Shown: positions 27,182 to 35,114 of the stretch, piece after piece
Numbering within the stretch: the stretch's first letter is position 1
How the letters are laid out: each line of letters begins with the position of its first letter
NCBI GenBank assembly: GCA_937132085.1
Contig: CAKZNV010000006.1
Location: 1 to 35,114, forward strand
Length of the DNA: 35,114 nucleotides
Source of the DNA: an uncultured Rubritalea sp.
GTDB taxonomy: Bacteria; Verrucomicrobiota; Verrucomicrobiia; Verrucomicrobiales; Akkermansiaceae
Reading direction: 5' to 3'
Program-made: the position numbers and the translations under genes
Notes under the pieces: generated by a model
Databases searched by the model: none
Told to the model about the DNA's origin: nothing
Seen by the model: only the letters and a program-made list of their open reading frames with translations

Positions 27182-27925
27182 ATGAAAAAACGAAATATCC
27201 TAAAATTCATCCCGCTATTGTTGTGCTTAAGTTCAAGTGTTCTTTCGGCACAGGTCGCCCCTGTAAAAGAGAAAACTGTGCCGCTGGTGACTAGGGATAA
27301 GGGGAGGCATGAAATGGTCAATGCTAAGATCGAGAAGCAATCATCTTATGATATTTTGATGCTAGGAGACTCGATCACTCACTTGCTCGATGAGCCGAAG
27401 CATCTGAATAAAGCTTGGCATAAAAATAGTGGCGAAAATTCTAAGTATGTAGCAAGGCAGCTCAGAGGGAAAACTATTCTGAATGCTGGGATCAGTGGCG
27501 AAAATACAGTCCATCTGCTTTCACGTCTTCAAAATGGTCTTTCTAAGGTTAAGTCAAAGTATACCACCATCATGATCGGAACCAATGATGCTAGAACTAA
27601 GCTCACGGTGGACCAGATTGCTAAGAATATCGAACAAGCCATTAAGATAGTGAACGAGAATAATCCAGATACTCAGATCTTACTCTATGCGATTTTCCCA
27701 AGAGGTAACTCAGAGAAGGATGCCGCTCGGGTTAAAAACCAAGCGGTGAATAAAATCTTAGCGACCTACCCTAAGAAGTTCAAGAACGTCAAATTCATCA
27801 ACATCAATAAGGATCTAAAGGAAAGAAACGGAACGGTTTCAACGGAGATGATGTATGATCGCCTTCACCCAACTCTCAAGGGTTACAAAGTTTGGATCAA
27901 GAGCATCAAGCGAGAAACTAAATAG
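27182..27925 (+). CDS. Secreted SGNH/GDSL hydrolase
   Basis: A 247-residue exported esterase of the SGNH fold, closest in pattern to PAF-acetylhydrolase-like members. A signal peptide (about 1-23, ending SVLSAQ) is followed by block I LGDSITHLL (Ser64), NAGISGENT (about 101-109), MIGTNDA (Asn135) and the catalytic pair in YDRLHP (Asp226, His229). Such enzymes often remove acetyl groups from glycans, which would fit the nearby sulfatase/sialidase cluster. That substrate is inference. The start lies only about 12 bases after a TATACT hexamer (27165-27170), suggesting a very short leader. The protease gene follows after 38 bases. Confidence 0.87.
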   Translation: MKKRNILKFIPLLLCLSSSVLSAQVAPVKEKTVPLVTRDKGRHEMVNAKIEKQSSYDILMLGDSITHLLDEPKHLNKAWHKNSGENSKYVARQLRGKTILNAGISGENTVHLLSRLQNGLSKVKSKYTTIMIGTNDARTKLTVDQIAKNIEQAIKIVNENNPDTQILLYAIFPRGNSEKDAARVKNQAVNKILATYPKKFKNVKFININKDLKERNGTVSTEMMYDRLHPTLKGYKVWIKSIKRETK

Positions 27926-27963: not shown

Positions 27964-29448
27964 ATGAAAAGAGCACTACAAACGCTACTGATTGCAGGTA
28001 TAACCACCTTGCCTCTGGGGCTACTGGCAAAAGAGGTAAGCCCTGTGGCAGTCTGTGATACTGTGCAGGGTCAGCTTGCAGAGAATTCTAAAGCTGTCGG
28101 TATTCTAGGTCGAGGTGCTACGGGATTTATCGTTTCTGAGGATGGATTGGTTCTCAGTGCGTGTCATGTAGTAGAGTCTAAAAGTAATATAGAGTATCCA
28201 TTTTTATTAGCTGATGGGACCAAGCTTAAGGTGAAGTTCCTAGGAGCTAATCGTGAGACAGACGTCGCCTTGTTCAAGGTGATCGATGTTCCTGAAGGTG
28301 GCTTACCGTTTGTTGAGTTGTCAGATAAGGCTGTTTCACATGATGAATACTGTTACGCGATAGGTTACCCTGGAGGAGCTAAACATAGCCAACTTCGATT
28401 AGGAATGGTTCGCTATTTCACTAAAGAAGGAGAAAAAAATCTAGCGATCGCTGCCGATGCATTCATTCAGCCAGGTGACTCAGGTTGTCCATTATTTAAT
28501 GCAGAGGGCAAGGTGATCGGGATTTGCAGTAATATTCCTCATTTCCTGAATACCAATCGCTATGCGACGATGGATATGTATTTCAGAGATCGAGAGAAAT
28601 TACTGAAACTAGACGGGAAGATCATGGGGCAGAAAGGAGTTGGCATCATGGCTCCCTTGCAATTAAAGCCTGATCAGGCGCTACTGACAAAGATCACTGA
28701 TGAGTTTCAGAGACGATGTGGTTTGAGGTATAGGTATGCTCAGCTAGAGGTGGAAAGAAGAAATGGCTCGATAGATACGCAGGGTGTTTTAGAGCATTTT
28801 AACTGTGAACTGATGGCCTACATCGCGGATGAGCCTGTCACACTTGGTGCTGATGATCCTGCTGTGCATAAACTATTACCCAATTTACCTGAAAACGGCA
28901 TTTTACCGATACAGACTCAGGGGAAGCAAGCGTCTTGCCTATTGCCTTGTGGTGATGGCATCGGGATCATGAGATTAGATAGATGGGATGAGACCACTAC
29001 CATTAAAACGCAAGCGGGAGATGTGAAGTTGGCTAAATTGGCTGAGCTGAAGAATGCTAATCTCTGCTTGGTTAAGATGCCTGATCTGAACGGTGATTTC
29101 GTTTGGCCAAAATCTGTAGAGTCAGTCAAACAGGGCGATATGCTAGTGACTTACCTAAACGCTGTAGATAAAGATTGGGGCGTTGTTACTTCTGATCAGA
29201 AACAGGATATTAAAATTTCAAAAGGCTGGATCCATGATGCTAAGTTATTGTCAGCTAAATGTCAGATGAAGGAGATCATCACCCATGACATCGATCTCTT
29301 CGCTAAAGATGCCTGCACACCAGTGTATAATAAAGATGGTCTATTCGTAGGTATCCATTTCCACAGAAAATCGAGAACGATAGGCTATATTATGCCTGCT
29401 GCTGATCTCCAAGCTTACGTAACTGAGCTGACCAAGTTGGCTAATTAA
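27964..29448 (+). CDS. Secreted trypsin-like serine protease with a second, catalytically dead protease domain
   Basis: 494 residues with a signal peptide (about 1-22). Domain 1 (about 40-215) is an S1C-like protease: GATGFIVSEDGLVLSACHVV gives His68, RETDVALFKV gives Asp100 and QPGDSGCPLF gives Ser173. Domain 2 (about 310-490) repeats the same order of segments but has Asp339 for His (MRLDRW), Asn365 for Asp (LKNANLCLVKM) and Ala450 for Ser (FAKDACTPVYNKDGLFVGIHF). No PDZ domain is evident, unlike DegP. The second copy may bind substrate or regulate the first. It is probably cotranscribed with the SGNH gene. Confidence 0.85.
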   Translation: MKRALQTLLIAGITTLPLGLLAKEVSPVAVCDTVQGQLAENSKAVGILGRGATGFIVSEDGLVLSACHVVESKSNIEYPFLLADGTKLKVKFLGANRETDVALFKVIDVPEGGLPFVELSDKAVSHDEYCYAIGYPGGAKHSQLRLGMVRYFTKEGEKNLAIAADAFIQPGDSGCPLFNAEGKVIGICSNIPHFLNTNRYATMDMYFRDREKLLKLDGKIMGQKGVGIMAPLQLKPDQALLTKITDEFQRRCGLRYRYAQLEVERRNGSIDTQGVLEHFNCELMAYIADEPVTLGADDPAVHKLLPNLPENGILPIQTQGKQASCLLPCGDGIGIMRLDRWDETTTIKTQAGDVKLAKLAELKNANLCLVKMPDLNGDFVWPKSVESVKQGDMLVTYLNAVDKDWGVVTSDQKQDIKISKGWIHDAKLLSAKCQMKEIITHDIDLFAKDACTPVYNKDGLFVGIHFHRKSRTIGYIMPAADLQAYVTELTKLAN

Positions 29449-29583: not shown

Positions 29584-30513
29584 TTAATATCCTTTTGAGA
29601 ACTGGATATCGAGTGTCTGCACCTGAGTGTGTAGGCCTGCATCCTGAACGGGGAGCACGATAGCGTCTTCATCAGATTCGTTGTGGTGTGAGTGCCACCA
29701 TCCTGGAGGAGTCACGAATACGGTGCCTGGCTTCCAGTCCGCTCTGATAGGGTCGATGATGTGACCTTCAGCGTTGATGCGCTTACCAATGAGTGTGTAA
29801 GTATTAGGTCCAGCGGATACACAGAAATCGAGTGCGATAGAGTTATGGCGGTGTGCCTTCTGACGAGTGTTTCTAGGCAATAGATTGTAAAGTGACCACA
29901 TGGTGTGGGTTACCGTCTTAGTCATTGGGCAGTCACGGTTGCCGAGTAGGATTCCGTTTCTGTTCTTGTTCTTACCTTCGTTTTCTTTTCTGACATTTTC
30001 TAGTGAGGTGTTGAGGAGCTCTGCGCTGAAGAAGACTGAGCGGAACTTTTTCTCAGACTGAGTAGCACCTAGGTAGCTAAGAAGTGGACTGTCATTGACC
30101 CAATAGAATGCCGTGTCTTCGTCTGCAAAATGCTCTAGATCGAGTTGACCAGGAGTGGCGAAGTAGTCGCCAGTTTTCCAAGTGACAATGCCATCTGGAG
30201 TCTTGGTGTGGCCTTTGCCTCTGATGCAGTAAAATACCTGTGACGATGCATTAGATTTCGAGGTGATTGATTCACCTGGATTAATGTGGATGTAATTCGC
30301 TAACAAGCTTGGTCCTGTGCATTCGTATGGGACCTCTAGTTTATCACCTAGGTTTAGAGGGATGATCTTAGTCTCATCGATCTGGTGTAGGCTAGCAGGG
30401 AAGACATCGATCTCGATGGATGGCATTCTTGGGTTTGCTGCACTGGAGTATTCAAAAAGGTTGCAGCCTTCTGCCCAAGCTTCGTTTAGTGTGTTTTCAA
30501 TTTCTTGTTTCAT
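29584..30513 (-). CDS. Bicupin protein, gentisate-1,2-dioxygenase-like
   Basis: A 309-residue cytoplasmic protein of two cupin domains. The C-terminal cupin (about 205-300) has metal-ligand candidates in QKAHRHNSIALDF (His221, His223) and GWWHSHHNES (His274, 276 or 277). The N-terminal cupin (about 65-150) keeps the fold pattern (GKGHTKTPDG, TWKTGDYFATPG) but has SKSNAS where metal-binding cupins have HxH, so it is probably metal-free. This is the layout of gentisate dioxygenase-like ring-cleaving enzymes, but the substrate cannot be told from sequence. It is the last gene of the minus-strand sulfatase/sialidase run, 39 bases after the sialidase. Confidence 0.8.
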   Translation of the reverse strand: MKQEIENTLNEAWAEGCNLFEYSSAANPRMPSIEIDVFPASLHQIDETKIIPLNLGDKLEVPYECTGPSLLANYIHINPGESITSKSNASSQVFYCIRGKGHTKTPDGIVTWKTGDYFATPGQLDLEHFADEDTAFYWVNDSPLLSYLGATQSEKKFRSVFFSAELLNTSLENVRKENEGKNKNRNGILLGNRDCPMTKTVTHTMWSLYNLLPRNTRQKAHRHNSIALDFCVSAGPNTYTLIGKRINAEGHIIDPIRADWKPGTVFVTPPGWWHSHHNESDEDAIVLPVQDAGLHTQVQTLDIQFSKGY

Positions 30514-30552
30514 GAGTAGATTTTGGTTTTTGGTAGTGAATAAATCTGGATG

Positions 30553-31725
30553 TTATTGTGGGTTGACCAGTGAAATAGGCAGGAAGTAAATGGACCATTT
30601 CTGTCTAGGGCTTTCGAAGGGTTCGTAGATGACGCCTAAGGTTTCAGCATCGATCTTCACCAGCTGGCTGTAGCCGAAGAGTCCGGGAATAATGGAGCGT
30701 TTAGTCGGCCAGGTTTTGCCATCGTCAGGGCTCATAGCGAGGTAGCCATTAGCACGTCGTTTGGTAGAATTGTTATAGGAAAAGAAGGTAAGGCTTTTTC
30801 CCTCTTTCGCAGATGAGAATTTGAGTAGTCCAGCATTACAAGGGCGATTTATAAGGTCCTTTGAGTATTCAAATGCTGGCCAAGTGACTCCACCATCTGT
30901 GCTGGTAGATATAGCTCGGTGCTTGTTTCTTCCTGCTCTAGCATTCATGACTACATGACCTTCATCTGTTTCTGAGATGAGACACTCGTTGCATGCTTCC
31001 GTAGTTTCTACAGGCACATATTCTGAGAGTTTCCAGGATTTACCTTCGTCATCTGAATAGAGCGTCGCATTGAGCCAGGTTCTTTTCTTGTCGTCGATTC
31101 TCTTGGTGAGAAAGAGGGGGAGTAGGATGCGTCCCTTGTGTTTTCCGTGTTTAAGTTGGATGCCATTGGCTGGGCTTCCTGACTGAATGATGTCTTTATC
31201 TTTACGTGCTATTTTCTGAAGCTCGATGACTTTAGACCATGTTTTACCATCGTCGTCGCTAGCTCGCATGAGGAGCTTCTGAGTGTTCTTGCCGAAACCT
31301 CCATCCATCATCTTGTAGGAGTGGCCTTTGTGCTTACCATTTCGAGCATGATATCCGTGAGGGAATGTCTCATACATGAGGAGAATTCTACCGCTACTAA
31401 GTGTGACAGGGCTAGGATTGACCATGACGAGATCTTGGTCAGCATGAATGATCTGGAGCTTGCCCCAAGTCTTTCCACCATCTTCGCTACGCTTGAGCAC
31501 GATGTCATTACGGCCATGGTCATCGTCTATGTAACGAGCTTCTGCAAAGGCGAGAAGCGTTCCTTTTTTACTACGTTCAATGGTAGGAATTCGGAAGTAG
31601 GGAATTTTACTTTCGCCAGCTTCGAAAACAGGGACTGGTTCAGCAAGCCCTTCGGCGGATTCAGTATAAGGAGCTGCATGCAGGCTTAATGCTGTGAGGG
31701 CTAGTATTGTCAGTGATTTAATCAT
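30553..31725 (-). CDS. Secreted exo-alpha-sialidase-like glycoside hydrolase (GH33 type)
   Basis: 390 residues with a signal peptide (about 1-17, ending SLHAAP) and a six-bladed sialidase fold. The FRIP motif (44-47) supplies the first arginine of the carboxylate-binding triad. Five Asp-boxes are visible: SEDGGKTW, SDDDGKTW, SDDEGKSW, STDGGVTW and SPDDGKTW. NECLISE and GLFGYSQLV are candidates for the Glu and Tyr catalytic pair. The enzyme would release sialic acid or a related acidic sugar outside the cytoplasm. It sits between a sulfatase and the bicupin gene, all on one strand. Substrate identity (Neu5Ac, KDN or other) is not shown. Confidence 0.88.
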   Translation of the reverse strand: MIKSLTILALTALSLHAAPYTESAEGLAEPVPVFEAGESKIPYFRIPTIERSKKGTLLAFAEARYIDDDHGRNDIVLKRSEDGGKTWGKLQIIHADQDLVMVNPSPVTLSSGRILLMYETFPHGYHARNGKHKGHSYKMMDGGFGKNTQKLLMRASDDDGKTWSKVIELQKIARKDKDIIQSGSPANGIQLKHGKHKGRILLPLFLTKRIDDKKRTWLNATLYSDDEGKSWKLSEYVPVETTEACNECLISETDEGHVVMNARAGRNKHRAISTSTDGGVTWPAFEYSKDLINRPCNAGLLKFSSAKEGKSLTFFSYNNSTKRRANGYLAMSPDDGKTWPTKRSIIPGLFGYSQLVKIDAETLGVIYEPFESPRQKWSIYFLPISLVNPQ

Positions 31726-31734
31726 GAGATTTAG

Positions 31735-33210
31735 TTAATTAGTCAGTTGTTTGATTGGTTGAACTCCATCCCAGCCCATTGCTTGACTCTGCATTTCTGA
31801 GTGCGCATTGATGAGTTGGGTTTTTAGTTTTTTGAATTGTTCAGGTTCTTGTTTTGATAGGTCGGTCTTCTGTGTTGGATCAGTTTTGATGTTGAAGAGT
31901 TGGAAACGAACGAGTTTACCAGTTTTCACGAGCTTTAGGTGTTTTTCTTTCCAGCTGGATCGTTTGAGTTGAGTTTCTGGGGCGTAAAATCCGCAGATCA
32001 CATAGTCGCCAATGCGTAGGACTGCATTGGGATTTGGAGCGTGATTGAAATTGGTGTTGTAGTGATGCCATTGTAGTGGCTTCTGGCGCTGCATCGATTT
32101 TCCCATGAGCAGTGAGAGATGGCTTTTCCCATCTAGTTCTAGATTTGCAGGAAGTGGTGTCTTAGTGACTTCACAGATAGTAGGTAACCAATCGATCGCT
32201 CCAGCTGGTGTATCGATGATTGTGTTAGGTTTGATTTTAGCAGGCCAATGGGCAACTCCTGGAGCATGGACTGAACCATCCCAAAGCCCGTATTTGTAGC
32301 CACGATAAGGTTCGGCTGAGCCATAGTTACGATCTCTTTTTCCATCTCCTAGAGTAGATGGTCCGTGATCCGATGTGAAAAGAATCAAGGTGTTATCGGC
32401 TATCTTTAGTTCTTCGAGTGTGCGGTGGATGTTGCCGATTTCCTTGTCCACATTGGTAACTGCGGCGAAGTAGATCGCTTGGTTTTTGTTATCGGTATCT
32501 TTGGCTAGGTATTGCTTAGTGATGTCTTCAGGAGCATCGACATACCAATGAGGTTCGTAGAAGTGGACGAACTGAATGAAAGGTTTACTCGGGTTGCGTT
32601 CCTTGGTGAGCCAATGGACGGCTTCTTGACCCACAATATTCGCCGCGAGACCTTTCTTCATTCCTTCATTTTTGCCATTACGGATCCAGTTAGGTTTGTT
32701 GCGGATCTTGGCATTGTCATCTGAGCAAAACCAATAATCGAAGCCGTAGTGATCCATGCTAGGGATGTCATTCTTACCAGCCTTGTCTCGCTTCATTTGC
32801 ACTTCGATGAGTGAGTTGTGCCACTTGCCAATCATGGCTGTCTGGTAGCCGTTTTTGCGCAGTAGTTGAGGAATGGTGATCTCTGTTTTTGGTAAATGTG
32901 TTAGAGAACCAGAGCTCCCACCAATGAAGCTGTAGATTCCGAGCCGATGTGGCATTCTCCCCGTGATAGCTGCTGCACGAGAAGGCGAACATACTTGAGC
33001 TGGTGAGTAGAAATGCGTGAAGGTCGCTCCACCTTTAGAAAGCTTATCTAGGTTAGGTGTCTTGATTGTCGGGTGCCCAGTAAAGCCCAGATCACCATAG
33101 CCGAGATCATCCGCCACGATGACGATGATATTAGGCTTCCCTTGTGCGTTAGCAATCGAGAGGATTGCTAGGGAGCCTAAAAGAATAGAAATGAAAAGGT
33201 GTTTGCTCAT
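31735..33210 (-). CDS. Secreted type I sulfatase
   Basis: 491 residues with a signal peptide (about 1-22, ending SIANAQ). The metal-binding VADDLGYGDLG (Asp34 and Asp35) and CSPSRAA (Cys74, the site converted to formylglycine) mark an S1-family sulfatase. GKWH, TSDHGPSTLGDG and DGSVHAPGVAHWP are further active-site segments. It removes sulfate esters from a sugar or aryl substrate. A formylglycine-generating enzyme must act on it and is not in the window. The start is 9 bases after the sialidase's upstream boundary, so the cluster appears cotranscribed. Confidence 0.93.
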   Translation of the reverse strand: MSKHLFISILLGSLAILSIANAQGKPNIIVIVADDLGYGDLGFTGHPTIKTPNLDKLSKGGATFTHFYSPAQVCSPSRAAAITGRMPHRLGIYSFIGGSSGSLTHLPKTEITIPQLLRKNGYQTAMIGKWHNSLIEVQMKRDKAGKNDIPSMDHYGFDYWFCSDDNAKIRNKPNWIRNGKNEGMKKGLAANIVGQEAVHWLTKERNPSKPFIQFVHFYEPHWYVDAPEDITKQYLAKDTDNKNQAIYFAAVTNVDKEIGNIHRTLEELKIADNTLILFTSDHGPSTLGDGKRDRNYGSAEPYRGYKYGLWDGSVHAPGVAHWPAKIKPNTIIDTPAGAIDWLPTICEVTKTPLPANLELDGKSHLSLLMGKSMQRQKPLQWHHYNTNFNHAPNPNAVLRIGDYVICGFYAPETQLKRSSWKEKHLKLVKTGKLVRFQLFNIKTDPTQKTDLSKQEPEQFKKLKTQLINAHSEMQSQAMGWDGVQPIKQLTN

Positions 33211-33222
33211 GTGGAGTGTTGC

Positions 33223-33318
33223 TTATTCTGTTGCAGGAATGGTTACGTAGCGCTCTGTGATCTTGTGTTTATCGACGTAATCTTGGATGAATTTGCTGAT
33301 TTCTGGCTTATCGACCAT
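33223..33318 (-). pseudogene. Probable 3' remnant of a lost gene between the two sulfatases
   Basis: The 168-base gap holds a 31-codon frame whose product (MVDKPEISKFIQDYVDKHKI then TERYVTIPATE) looks like the C-terminal end of a real protein rather than random sequence. A stop codon lies seven codons upstream (33337-33339), just past the ATG, so no longer gene exists. A 7-bp inverted repeat (33324-33330 and 33342-33348) marks the upstream edge and may be a deletion scar. It could instead be a short expressed peptide. Confidence 0.4.
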
Positions 33319-33378
33319 GCTCGCACTGGTCACCTGTTAATACCAGTGTGTGTATGGTTAGGCTATCAATAGTTGCAG

Positions 33379-35114
33379 CTACTTACTGAGATCTTTCATC
33401 AGAGGGAGTTTACGTTTTGCTCGTTCCTTATTGATAAATTCTACTGAGTCATCGACCTCTTGTTGAGTTCTACGTAGAGGATTGTCCTTCGCTGGTAAGA
33501 CAACAGTGCCAGCTTGTTTACCACTAAGAACAGCTGAGATTTTTGGCCATTCTACTACCCAGTTAGCTTCTGCCCACTGTTGATATTTTTCTAACATGAT
33601 CTTCAATTGTTCAGGATTACTCTTTGATAAATCATTAACCTCGGTGCGGTCTTTCGACATGTCGTAGAGCTCCCAGCCCTTGCCATTTTCTGCTACTAGC
33701 TTCCATTTTCCATAGCGTAGCCCGCGGTTTCCAGCATGTTCGAAACCAATTTGCCTCTCACCAATAGTTGCATTCGCTTCTAGTCCTGGAAGTAAGCTAG
33801 ATCCATCTAGCTTCATTGTCTTCTTCCCGTTCAACTCTGTAAGAGGCATGGCTCCGGCTGCATCGAGAAAGGTAGGAAGAAAATCCATGACATGCCCAGG
33901 CTGATGGATGATAGCGCCTTTATTCTTCAGTCTGTTAGGCCAATGCATGACGAGTGGTGTAGCGACTCCTCCTTCGTGAGAATATCGTTTAAACATACGG
34001 AACGGAGCATTACTGAGGTTCGCCCAGCCGGATCCGTATCCTCCGTAGGTATTCTCTGGTCCAGGCTCCACTCCGACAACATCACCTGAAATGACTGCGT
34101 TGTTTGCTCTGGTGCGCACAGGCACATATTTCATCACAGTCCACGGAGCTCCAGTGCTGCCGATGAGGCCATTAGGGTGCTCTAGAGAAGAGCCCCCATT
34201 ATCTGAAAGAACTAAAATGATGGTGTTGTCTAACTTACCAGCCTTTTTCAACTGATCGACAATCTTGCCAACACCAGTATCGACATGGTCAATCATTGCT
34301 GCATGGGCAGCCATACGACTAGCTTGCCACTCTTTATGTTTCTCATCTTTCCATGCTATCGCCTTAGGATTACGTGCTGACAAGACGGTTGACTCGGCAA
34401 TGATACCAGAAGCTTTCAGTTTTTTCAGCCGCTCAGCACGGAGCTTATCATAGCCTTCTAGGTAAAGTTTTTTGTATTTATCGATGACTTCCTGACGTGC
34501 ATGCAGAGGCCAATGTGGAGCGGCGTATGCCATGTAGAGGAAGAATGGTTTGTCCTCTTTCTGTTCCTTCATCCACGTGATCGCCTTAGTAGATAAAGCC
34601 TCTGTGTAGTAGAAATCTTCATCTTTAGAAATGGGGAATACGCTTTTGTTACCCTCTGTTAGAGTGATCGGATTCCACTGACTGCCAGCGGCGATCAATG
34701 TGCCATAAAACTTATCAAAGCCACGCTGTAATGGCCAATTGTGCTTAGAGCCATCTGGTGACCAATTGATGCTGAGATGCCATTTACCAGCCATCCAAGT
34801 ATCATAGCCTACCGCCTTTAAACTCTCCGCTATGGTTGCCGCCTCAGGACGTATCTCTCCTTTATAGCCCTTGAACCCGTAGTCTCTACTAGCCATGTGC
34901 CCCACACCTGAGCGATGTGGATAGAGACCAGTGAGCATGCTGGCACGGGTAGGGCAGCAGCGTCCAGAATTGTAGAACTGACTGAAGCGAACACCATTTT
35001 TGGCTAGCTTGTCGATGTTTGGAGTTTGGATTTCCCCACCGTAACAACCTAGATCTGAGTAACCCATGTCATCGAGCATGATGAGGACGATGTTAGGTTT
35101 CTTAGTATCGTTCG
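33379..35114 (-). CDS. Type I sulfatase, N-terminus beyond the window end
   Basis: At least 577 residues are read. The frame is open to the window edge, starting KKPNIVLIMLDDMGYSDLG, the usual segment just after a signal peptide, so the gene starts outside. CCPTRAS (first Cys of the CxPxR motif) is the formylglycine site. GKWHLS, VLSDNGGSS and an HEGGVATPLVMHWP segment complete the active site. The C-terminal region (ELYDMSKDRTEVNDLS) is the standard arylsulfatase tail. It resembles arylsulfatase A/AtsA-type proteins more than the neighbouring sulfatase does, so the two probably hit different sulfate positions. It is first in the minus-strand cluster. Confidence 0.93.
   Translation of the reverse strand, partial: NDTKKPNIVLIMLDDMGYSDLGCYGGEIQTPNIDKLAKNGVRFSQFYNSGRCCPTRASMLTGLYPHRSGVGHMASRDYGFKGYKGEIRPEAATIAESLKAVGYDTWMAGKWHLSINWSPDGSKHNWPLQRGFDKFYGTLIAAGSQWNPITLTEGNKSVFPISKDEDFYYTEALSTKAITWMKEQKEDKPFFLYMAYAAPHWPLHARQEVIDKYKKLYLEGYDKLRAERLKKLKASGIIAESTVLSARNPKAIAWKDEKHKEWQASRMAAHAAMIDHVDTGVGKIVDQLKKAGKLDNTIILVLSDNGGSSLEHPNGLIGSTGAPWTVMKYVPVRTRANNAVISGDVVGVEPGPENTYGGYGSGWANLSNAPFRMFKRYSHEGGVATPLVMHWPNRLKNKGAIIHQPGHVMDFLPTFLDAAGAMPLTELNGKKTMKLDGSSLLPGLEANATIGERQIGFEHAGNRGLRYGKWKLVAENGKGWELYDMSKDRTEVNDLSKSNPEQLKIMLEKYQQWAEANWVVEWPKISAVLSGKQAGTVVLPAKDNPLRRTQQEVDDSVEFINKERAKRKLPLMKDLSK

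Follow-up and report, generated by a model that had tools for sequence, protein, structure and literature searches.

Sulfatase, sialidase and bicupin genes clustered at the end of a Rubritalea contig

The window (35,114 nucleotides) is the entire contig C6 of an uncultured Rubritalea sp., whose genome assembly comprises 4.46 Mb in 254 contigs. Four genes occupy its last 5.5 kb, all on the minus strand; according to the list of open reading frames and Pfam, they encode two S1 sulfatases (B and A), a GH33-type sialidase and a bicupin (Table 1). The explanation that is moderately favoured here is that an exported set for desulfating and desialylating a sulfated, sialylated glycan has been joined in this lineage by a cytosolic metallo-cupin, which is unlikely to cleave gentisate. 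G numbers denote genomes, L numbers the loci (stretches) compared and C numbers contigs of the source genome.

From their common strand and the gaps between them, the four genes are likely to be co-transcribed. Judging by eye, both sulfatases and the sialidase would be exported; the start of sulfatase B is lost because the contig stops at 35114, and upstream genes are beyond view for the same reason. The sulfatases would take sulfate esters off the glycan, and the GH33 enzyme, whose aligned residues suggest the retaining Tyr/Glu mechanism typical of the family, may free terminal sialic acid. Freed sialate could feed a NanA-like lyase, for which a candidate gene is found on another contig. The bicupin would be a cytosolic metal enzyme with a gentisate/salicylate dioxygenase-type fold that was recruited to the set in this lineage.

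Teamwork of sialidase and sulfatases, with the precise sialidase being exchangeable, is probable from the sequences compared because a BNR-family gene adjoins sulfatase A, the B-A pair is found in G688, sulfatase and BNR domains are fused in relatives, and sialate-type genes occur in related loci. Small gaps separate the four genes (B-A, 168 bp; A-sialidase, 9 bp; sialidase-bicupin, 39 bp), with a remnant in the largest of them; this is the layout given in a preliminary description of the window, which was made from the sequence alone.

Table 1. Features of the gene cluster and fusion genes in related genomes
Feature	Location	Strand	Length	Remarks
Bicupin	29584..30513	-	309 aa	Pfam Cupin_2/Cupin_1; no signal peptide by eye
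GH33-type exo-sialidase	30553..31725	-	390 aa	BNR_2/BNR_3; hydrophobic N-terminus (signal peptide by eye)
S1 sulfatase A	31735..33210	-	491 aa	CSPSR at 74-78; hydrophobic N-terminus (signal peptide by eye)
Remnant	33226..33336	-	37 codons	open stretch inside B-A gap
S1 sulfatase B	33379..35112	-	at least 577 aa	CCPTR; best solved match 7ALL
NanM fused to sodium:solute symporter	L129:10307-13045			G137
Sulfatase+BNR_assoc_N+BNR sialidase fusion	L129:12955-16515			G137
S1 sulfatase+SASA esterase+BNR fusion	L174:1669-6222		1517 aa	G119; directly after bicupin gene

Sulfatases and sialidase

Both sulfatases match Pfam Sulfatase (PF00884, 204 and 231 bits) and contain the C-x-P-S/T-R motif of S1 enzymes, with the formylglycine motif being CSPSR in A and CCPTR in B. 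Their mutual identity is 27%; the two are distinct S1 sulfatases, as previously described. Among solved structures, none is close to sulfatase A (best match 3ed4, E 8.5e-63). For sulfatase B, the top match among them is 7ALL (E 2.7e-113), identified as BT4683 (PMC12421950). BT4683 is described as an S1_4 enzyme, an endo-acting 3S-Gal sulfatase of mucin use which strips internal 3-O-sulfate from galactose (PMC10154612). The likeness of sulfatase B to BT4683 is that of an overall match.

The sialidase scores 92 bits against BNR_2 (Pfam cut-off 31.4) and contains five Asp-boxes; its Pfam domains of known function are confined to BNR-type matches. In an alignment to 2bf6 (NanI of Clostridium perfringens), Arg45, Asp69, Glu247, Arg263, Arg324 and Tyr352 match the six active-site positions. 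These correspond to the Arg triad, the acid/base Asp, the Glu and the nucleophilic Tyr of NanI. The GH33-like assignment made earlier is thereby borne out, since the Arg triad, Asp, Glu and Tyr are accompanied by Asp-box repeats and membership of the BNR family. The window enzyme is like NanI in these features; it differs in that even its best solved match reaches only E 3e-36.

The search for orthologs of sulfatase A scored the best few candidates in each of 386 genomes of the order, 119 of which had a match (E up to 1e-75). Within that scope, close orthologs are found in G649 (77% identity), G688 (76%) and G080 (68%), and the next place has at most 46%. A BNR-family gene abuts sulfatase A in the window and in all three close orthologs. 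It is located 9 bp away in the window, 10 bp in G080 and 12 bp in G688, where the genes are convergent and the neighbour is a BNR_2 gene. In G649, the region that starts where sulfatase A ends, truncated at the contig edge, matches the BNR_2 protein L010:6193-7851 at 65% identity. These BNR neighbours are not one and the same paralog. Sulfatase A can therefore be regarded as the core of the set: a BNR-family gene abuts it throughout this small ortholog group while the paralog varies.

More distant homologs of sulfatase A (37-46% identity) behave differently. Among the 23 that were read, 22 are in other loci (L148, L149, L156-L173, L177 and L178), and no BNR match is present in the stretches around any of these 22; the stretches are 6.6 to 19.9 kb long and some end close to the gene. 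Counting a paralog in G080, one of the 23 is near a BNR gene. In L148 and L149, a gene of the sialate-esterase type SASA is immediately downstream of the distant homolog.

The two sulfatase genes also adjoin in G688, where B and A have 74% and 76% identity to their counterparts in the window. The gap between them is just 17 bp in that genome (L155), compared with 168 bp including the remnant in the window.

Two related genomes combine a sulfatase and a sialidase-type domain in single polypeptides; in one of these, a domain of sialate-esterase type separates the two (Table 1). The G137 locus (L129) contains a DHDPS/NanA-type gene, a GntR regulator, a sulfatase, a double-BNR protein, the NanM-symporter fusion and the sulfatase-BNR fusion. 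L010 and L174 (G119) have in common genes for an epimerase, a GntR regulator and a DHDPS/NanA-type protein, along with BNR, SGNH hydrolase and sulfatase genes; NanM and the sulfatase-SASA-BNR fusion are additional in G119. Three proteins of the DHDPS family have N-acetylneuraminate lyase as their top NCBIfam score, yet they remain below its cut-off (141-151 vs 281 bits); the name NanA is consequently drawn from family and setting. In the source genome itself, C37 carries a DHDPS/NanA-type gene adjacent to SGNH and BNR genes, and C227 carries BNR, GntR, GH20 and SASA genes.

The suggestion that sialidase and sulfatases form one activity set is supported by the adjacency of BNR genes to sulfatase A (3/3 close orthologs vs 1/23 distant homologs), by the fusions and by the sialate-type genes nearby. 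Conservation of gene order, to which the preliminary description pointed as a check, is partial: the B-A pair and the A-BNR adjacency recur, while all four genes occur together in no stretch that was read other than the window. In G080, orthologs of three of the genes are present, each at a different place. An operon of all four genes kept constant across relatives was considered and rejected, as none is seen in the stretches read.

The bicupin

The structure model of the bicupin (pLDDT 89.7) has salicylate dioxygenase (SDO) and gentisate dioxygenase (GDO) as its nearest solved folds, with Z 25.4-26.2; the next fold has Z 20.2. In SDO and GDO, the catalytic metal site is reported in the N-terminal cupin, with the C-terminal cupin being vestigial; Arg127 of SDO is reported to bind the substrate carboxylate (PMC10306065). 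In a profile of 35 relatives, cupin 1 of the bicupin aligns with the C-terminal cupin of GDO/SDO and cupin 2 with the N-terminal, metal-bearing one; domain order is thus reversed relative to these enzymes. From the same comparison, His221, His223 and His274 in the C-terminal cupin are the predicted metal triad. These three residues and His276 are invariant, and the equivalent of SDO His162 is retained. Asp229 aligns with SDO Arg127 and is Asp in 35/35 aligned bicupin sequences.

The bicupin is therefore like GDO and SDO in its fold, its single HxH...H site and the His162 equivalent; it is unlike them in its reversed domains, its C-terminal metal site and the Asp in place of Arg127. It scores 44.1 bits against the NCBIfam model of gentisate 1,2-dioxygenase (TIGR02272, cut-off 442.1) and 61 bits against that of 5-aminosalicylate dioxygenase (cut-off 650). 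Membership of the gentisate dioxygenase family was rejected due to the TIGR02272 score, the reversed domains and the replacement of Arg127. The bicupin is best described as a distant GDO relative for which gentisate cleavage is unlikely on these alignments; with its reversed domains and altered substrate pocket, the earlier label of a ring-cleavage-type bicupin is unjustified.

If the bicupin were in fact a gentisate or salicylate dioxygenase and its substrate an aromatic substituent of the glycan, this would explain why the closest folds are SDO and GDO and why the HxH...H positions and the His162 equivalent are kept. Such a role is highly improbable given that both NCBIfam scores are about a tenth of the cut-off, that domain order is reversed and that Asp229 is constant at the Arg127 position.

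The bicupin is single-copy in the source genome and was not found in 11 genomes of the same genus and 24 of the same family, some of which are incomplete. It is present in 30/386 genomes of the order, where the source genome is the sole representative of its family among the matches listed, and in 5/387 genomes of the phylum, the source genome included. A scan by peptide patterns gave 95 relatives, of which 80 were retained, which makes the observed spread a lower bound. Bicupins of 49-56% identity are found in Mariprofundus, Ghiorsea and Thiomicrorhabdus, which are iron- and sulfur-oxidising autotrophs. The family thus spans iron oxidisers to Verrucomicrobiota, with a pocket that is fixed yet unlike that of the dioxygenases.

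The order-wide search gave 31 places, and neighbourhoods were read for about one third of them. The census of bicupin loci covers 27 of verrucomicrobial type (L006-L032, two of them labelled otherwise) and 56 others, with some stretches being short. A sulfatase gene is near the bicupin in 7/27 loci of verrucomicrobial type. Eleven bicupin loci contain a PurT-like ATP-grasp gene; this gene was checked as a neighbour of the bicupin in L043 (11073-12266) and L014 (6699-7856), where orientations differ.

In two loci from genomes of another family, L010 and L174 (G119), the bicupin belongs to a sialate-type operon and follows a sulfatase gene at a distance of 4 bp. In G119, the epimerase and DHDPS/NanA-type genes diverge from GntR, BNR, NanM, SGNH, sulfatase, bicupin, sulfatase-SASA-BNR fusion and PhyH; in L010, the bicupin is the final gene before the contig end. 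The sulfatase and sialidase of the window have only 27% and 30% identity to their L010 counterparts and are different genes. The window, L010 and L174 bicupins fall inside a supported clade of nine members (100/96). On the bicupin tree, the three linked members require at least two changes, and 7/500 shuffles need as few. The other six members (L006, L007, L008, L009, L011 and L012) have no sulfatase or BNR match within reach of their contigs, two of which end within about 210 bp upstream of the bicupin.

Alternative explanations

Several observations weigh against the favoured reading. The four contexts of sulfatase A are those of kin, hence not four independent events, and the G649 copy carries an in-frame stop. 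The distant homolog near a BNR gene is a 46% paralog in G080 (L127:6906-9548), 253 bp from that gene and in the same locus as the ortholog. The B ortholog of G080 (51%) is about 28 kb away from A. The 168-bp gap with its remnant may interrupt co-transcription, and a promoter and terminator scan gave counts no higher than in shuffles. A BNR gene is near the bicupin in one of the 27 verrucomicrobial-type loci (L010) and in none of the other 26; in the same search, the 56 other loci gave neither a BNR nor a sulfatase gene near it (0/56 for each). G080, G649 and G688, which have close sulfatase A orthologs, are not among the bicupin matches listed in the order-wide search, in which they were presumably included.

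The sialidase adds to these observations. Matches at E up to 1e-60 occur in 4/142 related genomes, the source genome included. No sulfatase match turned up in the 19.9 kb read around the relatives in G080 (68-69%) and G040 (53-55%); in G137, a sulfatase gene adjoins the relative (39%). Since those of G080 and G040 are away from sulfatases, the window sialidase is an exchangeable or stand-alone piece and not a fixed partner (2/3 relatives apart from sulfatases). Unlinked relatives had been named beforehand as the finding that would speak against the cluster, and this result is divided: two of the relatives are unlinked and the third is linked.

It is possible, though unlikely, that the neighbourhood arose by chance as hydrolase genes were shuffled in a sulfatase-rich genome and that there is no common substrate. 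The source genome has 42 Sulfatase matches and 10 BNR_2 matches (7 above cut-off), so adjacency by itself is a weak signal; the unlinked sialidase relatives and the scarcity of BNR genes near bicupins are as expected from shuffling, and the open stretch between B and A may be a sign of rearrangement. A chance neighbourhood is harder to reconcile with a BNR gene that adjoins sulfatase A in the window as well as in all close orthologs but is rare beside distant homologs, with the B-A pair kept in G688, or with the sulfatase-BNR fusions of G137 and G119.

The bicupin may instead be a working enzyme of sialic acid use that converts, in the cytosol, a product freed from a modified sialoglycan; this is tentative and likewise on the unlikely side. 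It would fit the embedding of the gene in the sialate-type operon of G119 and its place at the end of the similar L010 operon. It would also fit linkage in the window to different sulfatase and sialidase genes, and a tree that calls for two or more changes. By a rough estimate, the chance that a BNR gene lies on the same strand and no more than four genes away is about 1% (10 BNR_2 matches among about 3,900 genes, as estimated from 4.46 Mb). Given the many loci examined, two such linkage events are suggestive and only mildly unlikely by chance. The clustering of linkage on the tree would also allow one shared descent, and six of nine clade members are without sulfatase or BNR match as far as their contigs reach. 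Mariprofundus and Thiomicrorhabdus carry the bicupin without a nearby sulfatase or BNR gene; a reaction specific to sialate is therefore unlikely for the family as a whole.

O-sulfated and otherwise modified sialic acids occur in marine animals. A pathway for these compounds, in which sulfatase A would act as a sialate O-sulfatase and so make sialic acid accessible to the sialidase, and the bicupin would be a novel cytosolic enzyme for modified sialates, is improbable. The authors of a 2023 review knew of no report of a microbial sulfatase active on such sulfated sialates (PMC10017367), and literature searches on this point listed just that review and one unrelated case report. Neither a sialate sulfatase nor this bicupin family is named in the titles and abstract openings that the literature searches listed, which is a weak absence. 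For the missing step, bacterial removal of sulfate from sialic acid, sulfatase A offers a defined candidate that can be expressed.

The exported set favoured here has counterparts in gut mucin degraders, where teamwork of sialidases and sulfatases is known. In Akkermansia muciniphila and Bacteroides, sialidases and S1 sulfatases are reported to serve the use of sulfated O-glycans (PMC11790493, PMC10154612). In contrast to these mucin sets, that of the window is small, local and compact, and it includes a cupin. Within the Akkermansiaceae, a co-occurring mucin-type set that includes sialidases is reported to be reduced in aquatic members, with sulfatases being most frequent in marine ones (PMC13174399).

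Neighbouring genes and minor observations

The remnant between sulfatases B and A has no Pfam match and no second DNA copy in the genome. By eye, it was guessed to be the end of a phosphate-binding protein; the Pfam scan gave no match for this. Recent transfer was considered from base composition and rejected: the four genes have GC 0.459-0.471 vs 0.448 for the window, and the contrast is unclear.

In G080, the region between the B and A orthologs contains corrinoid-type, PhyH, DHDPS/NanA-type, sulfatase and BNR genes among others. Near the B ortholog (L126:12377-19684) are genes for a URO-D-type protein, a corrinoid protein, a RACo-type activator and PhyH, which resemble a demethylation set. 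A YtoQ-family gene is located in the middle of the sialidase/sulfatase locus of the same genome (L127:15555-16007). Beside the cluster in the window, genes for an SGNH hydrolase (27182-27925) and a trypsin-like protease (27964-29448) are found on the opposite (plus) strand.

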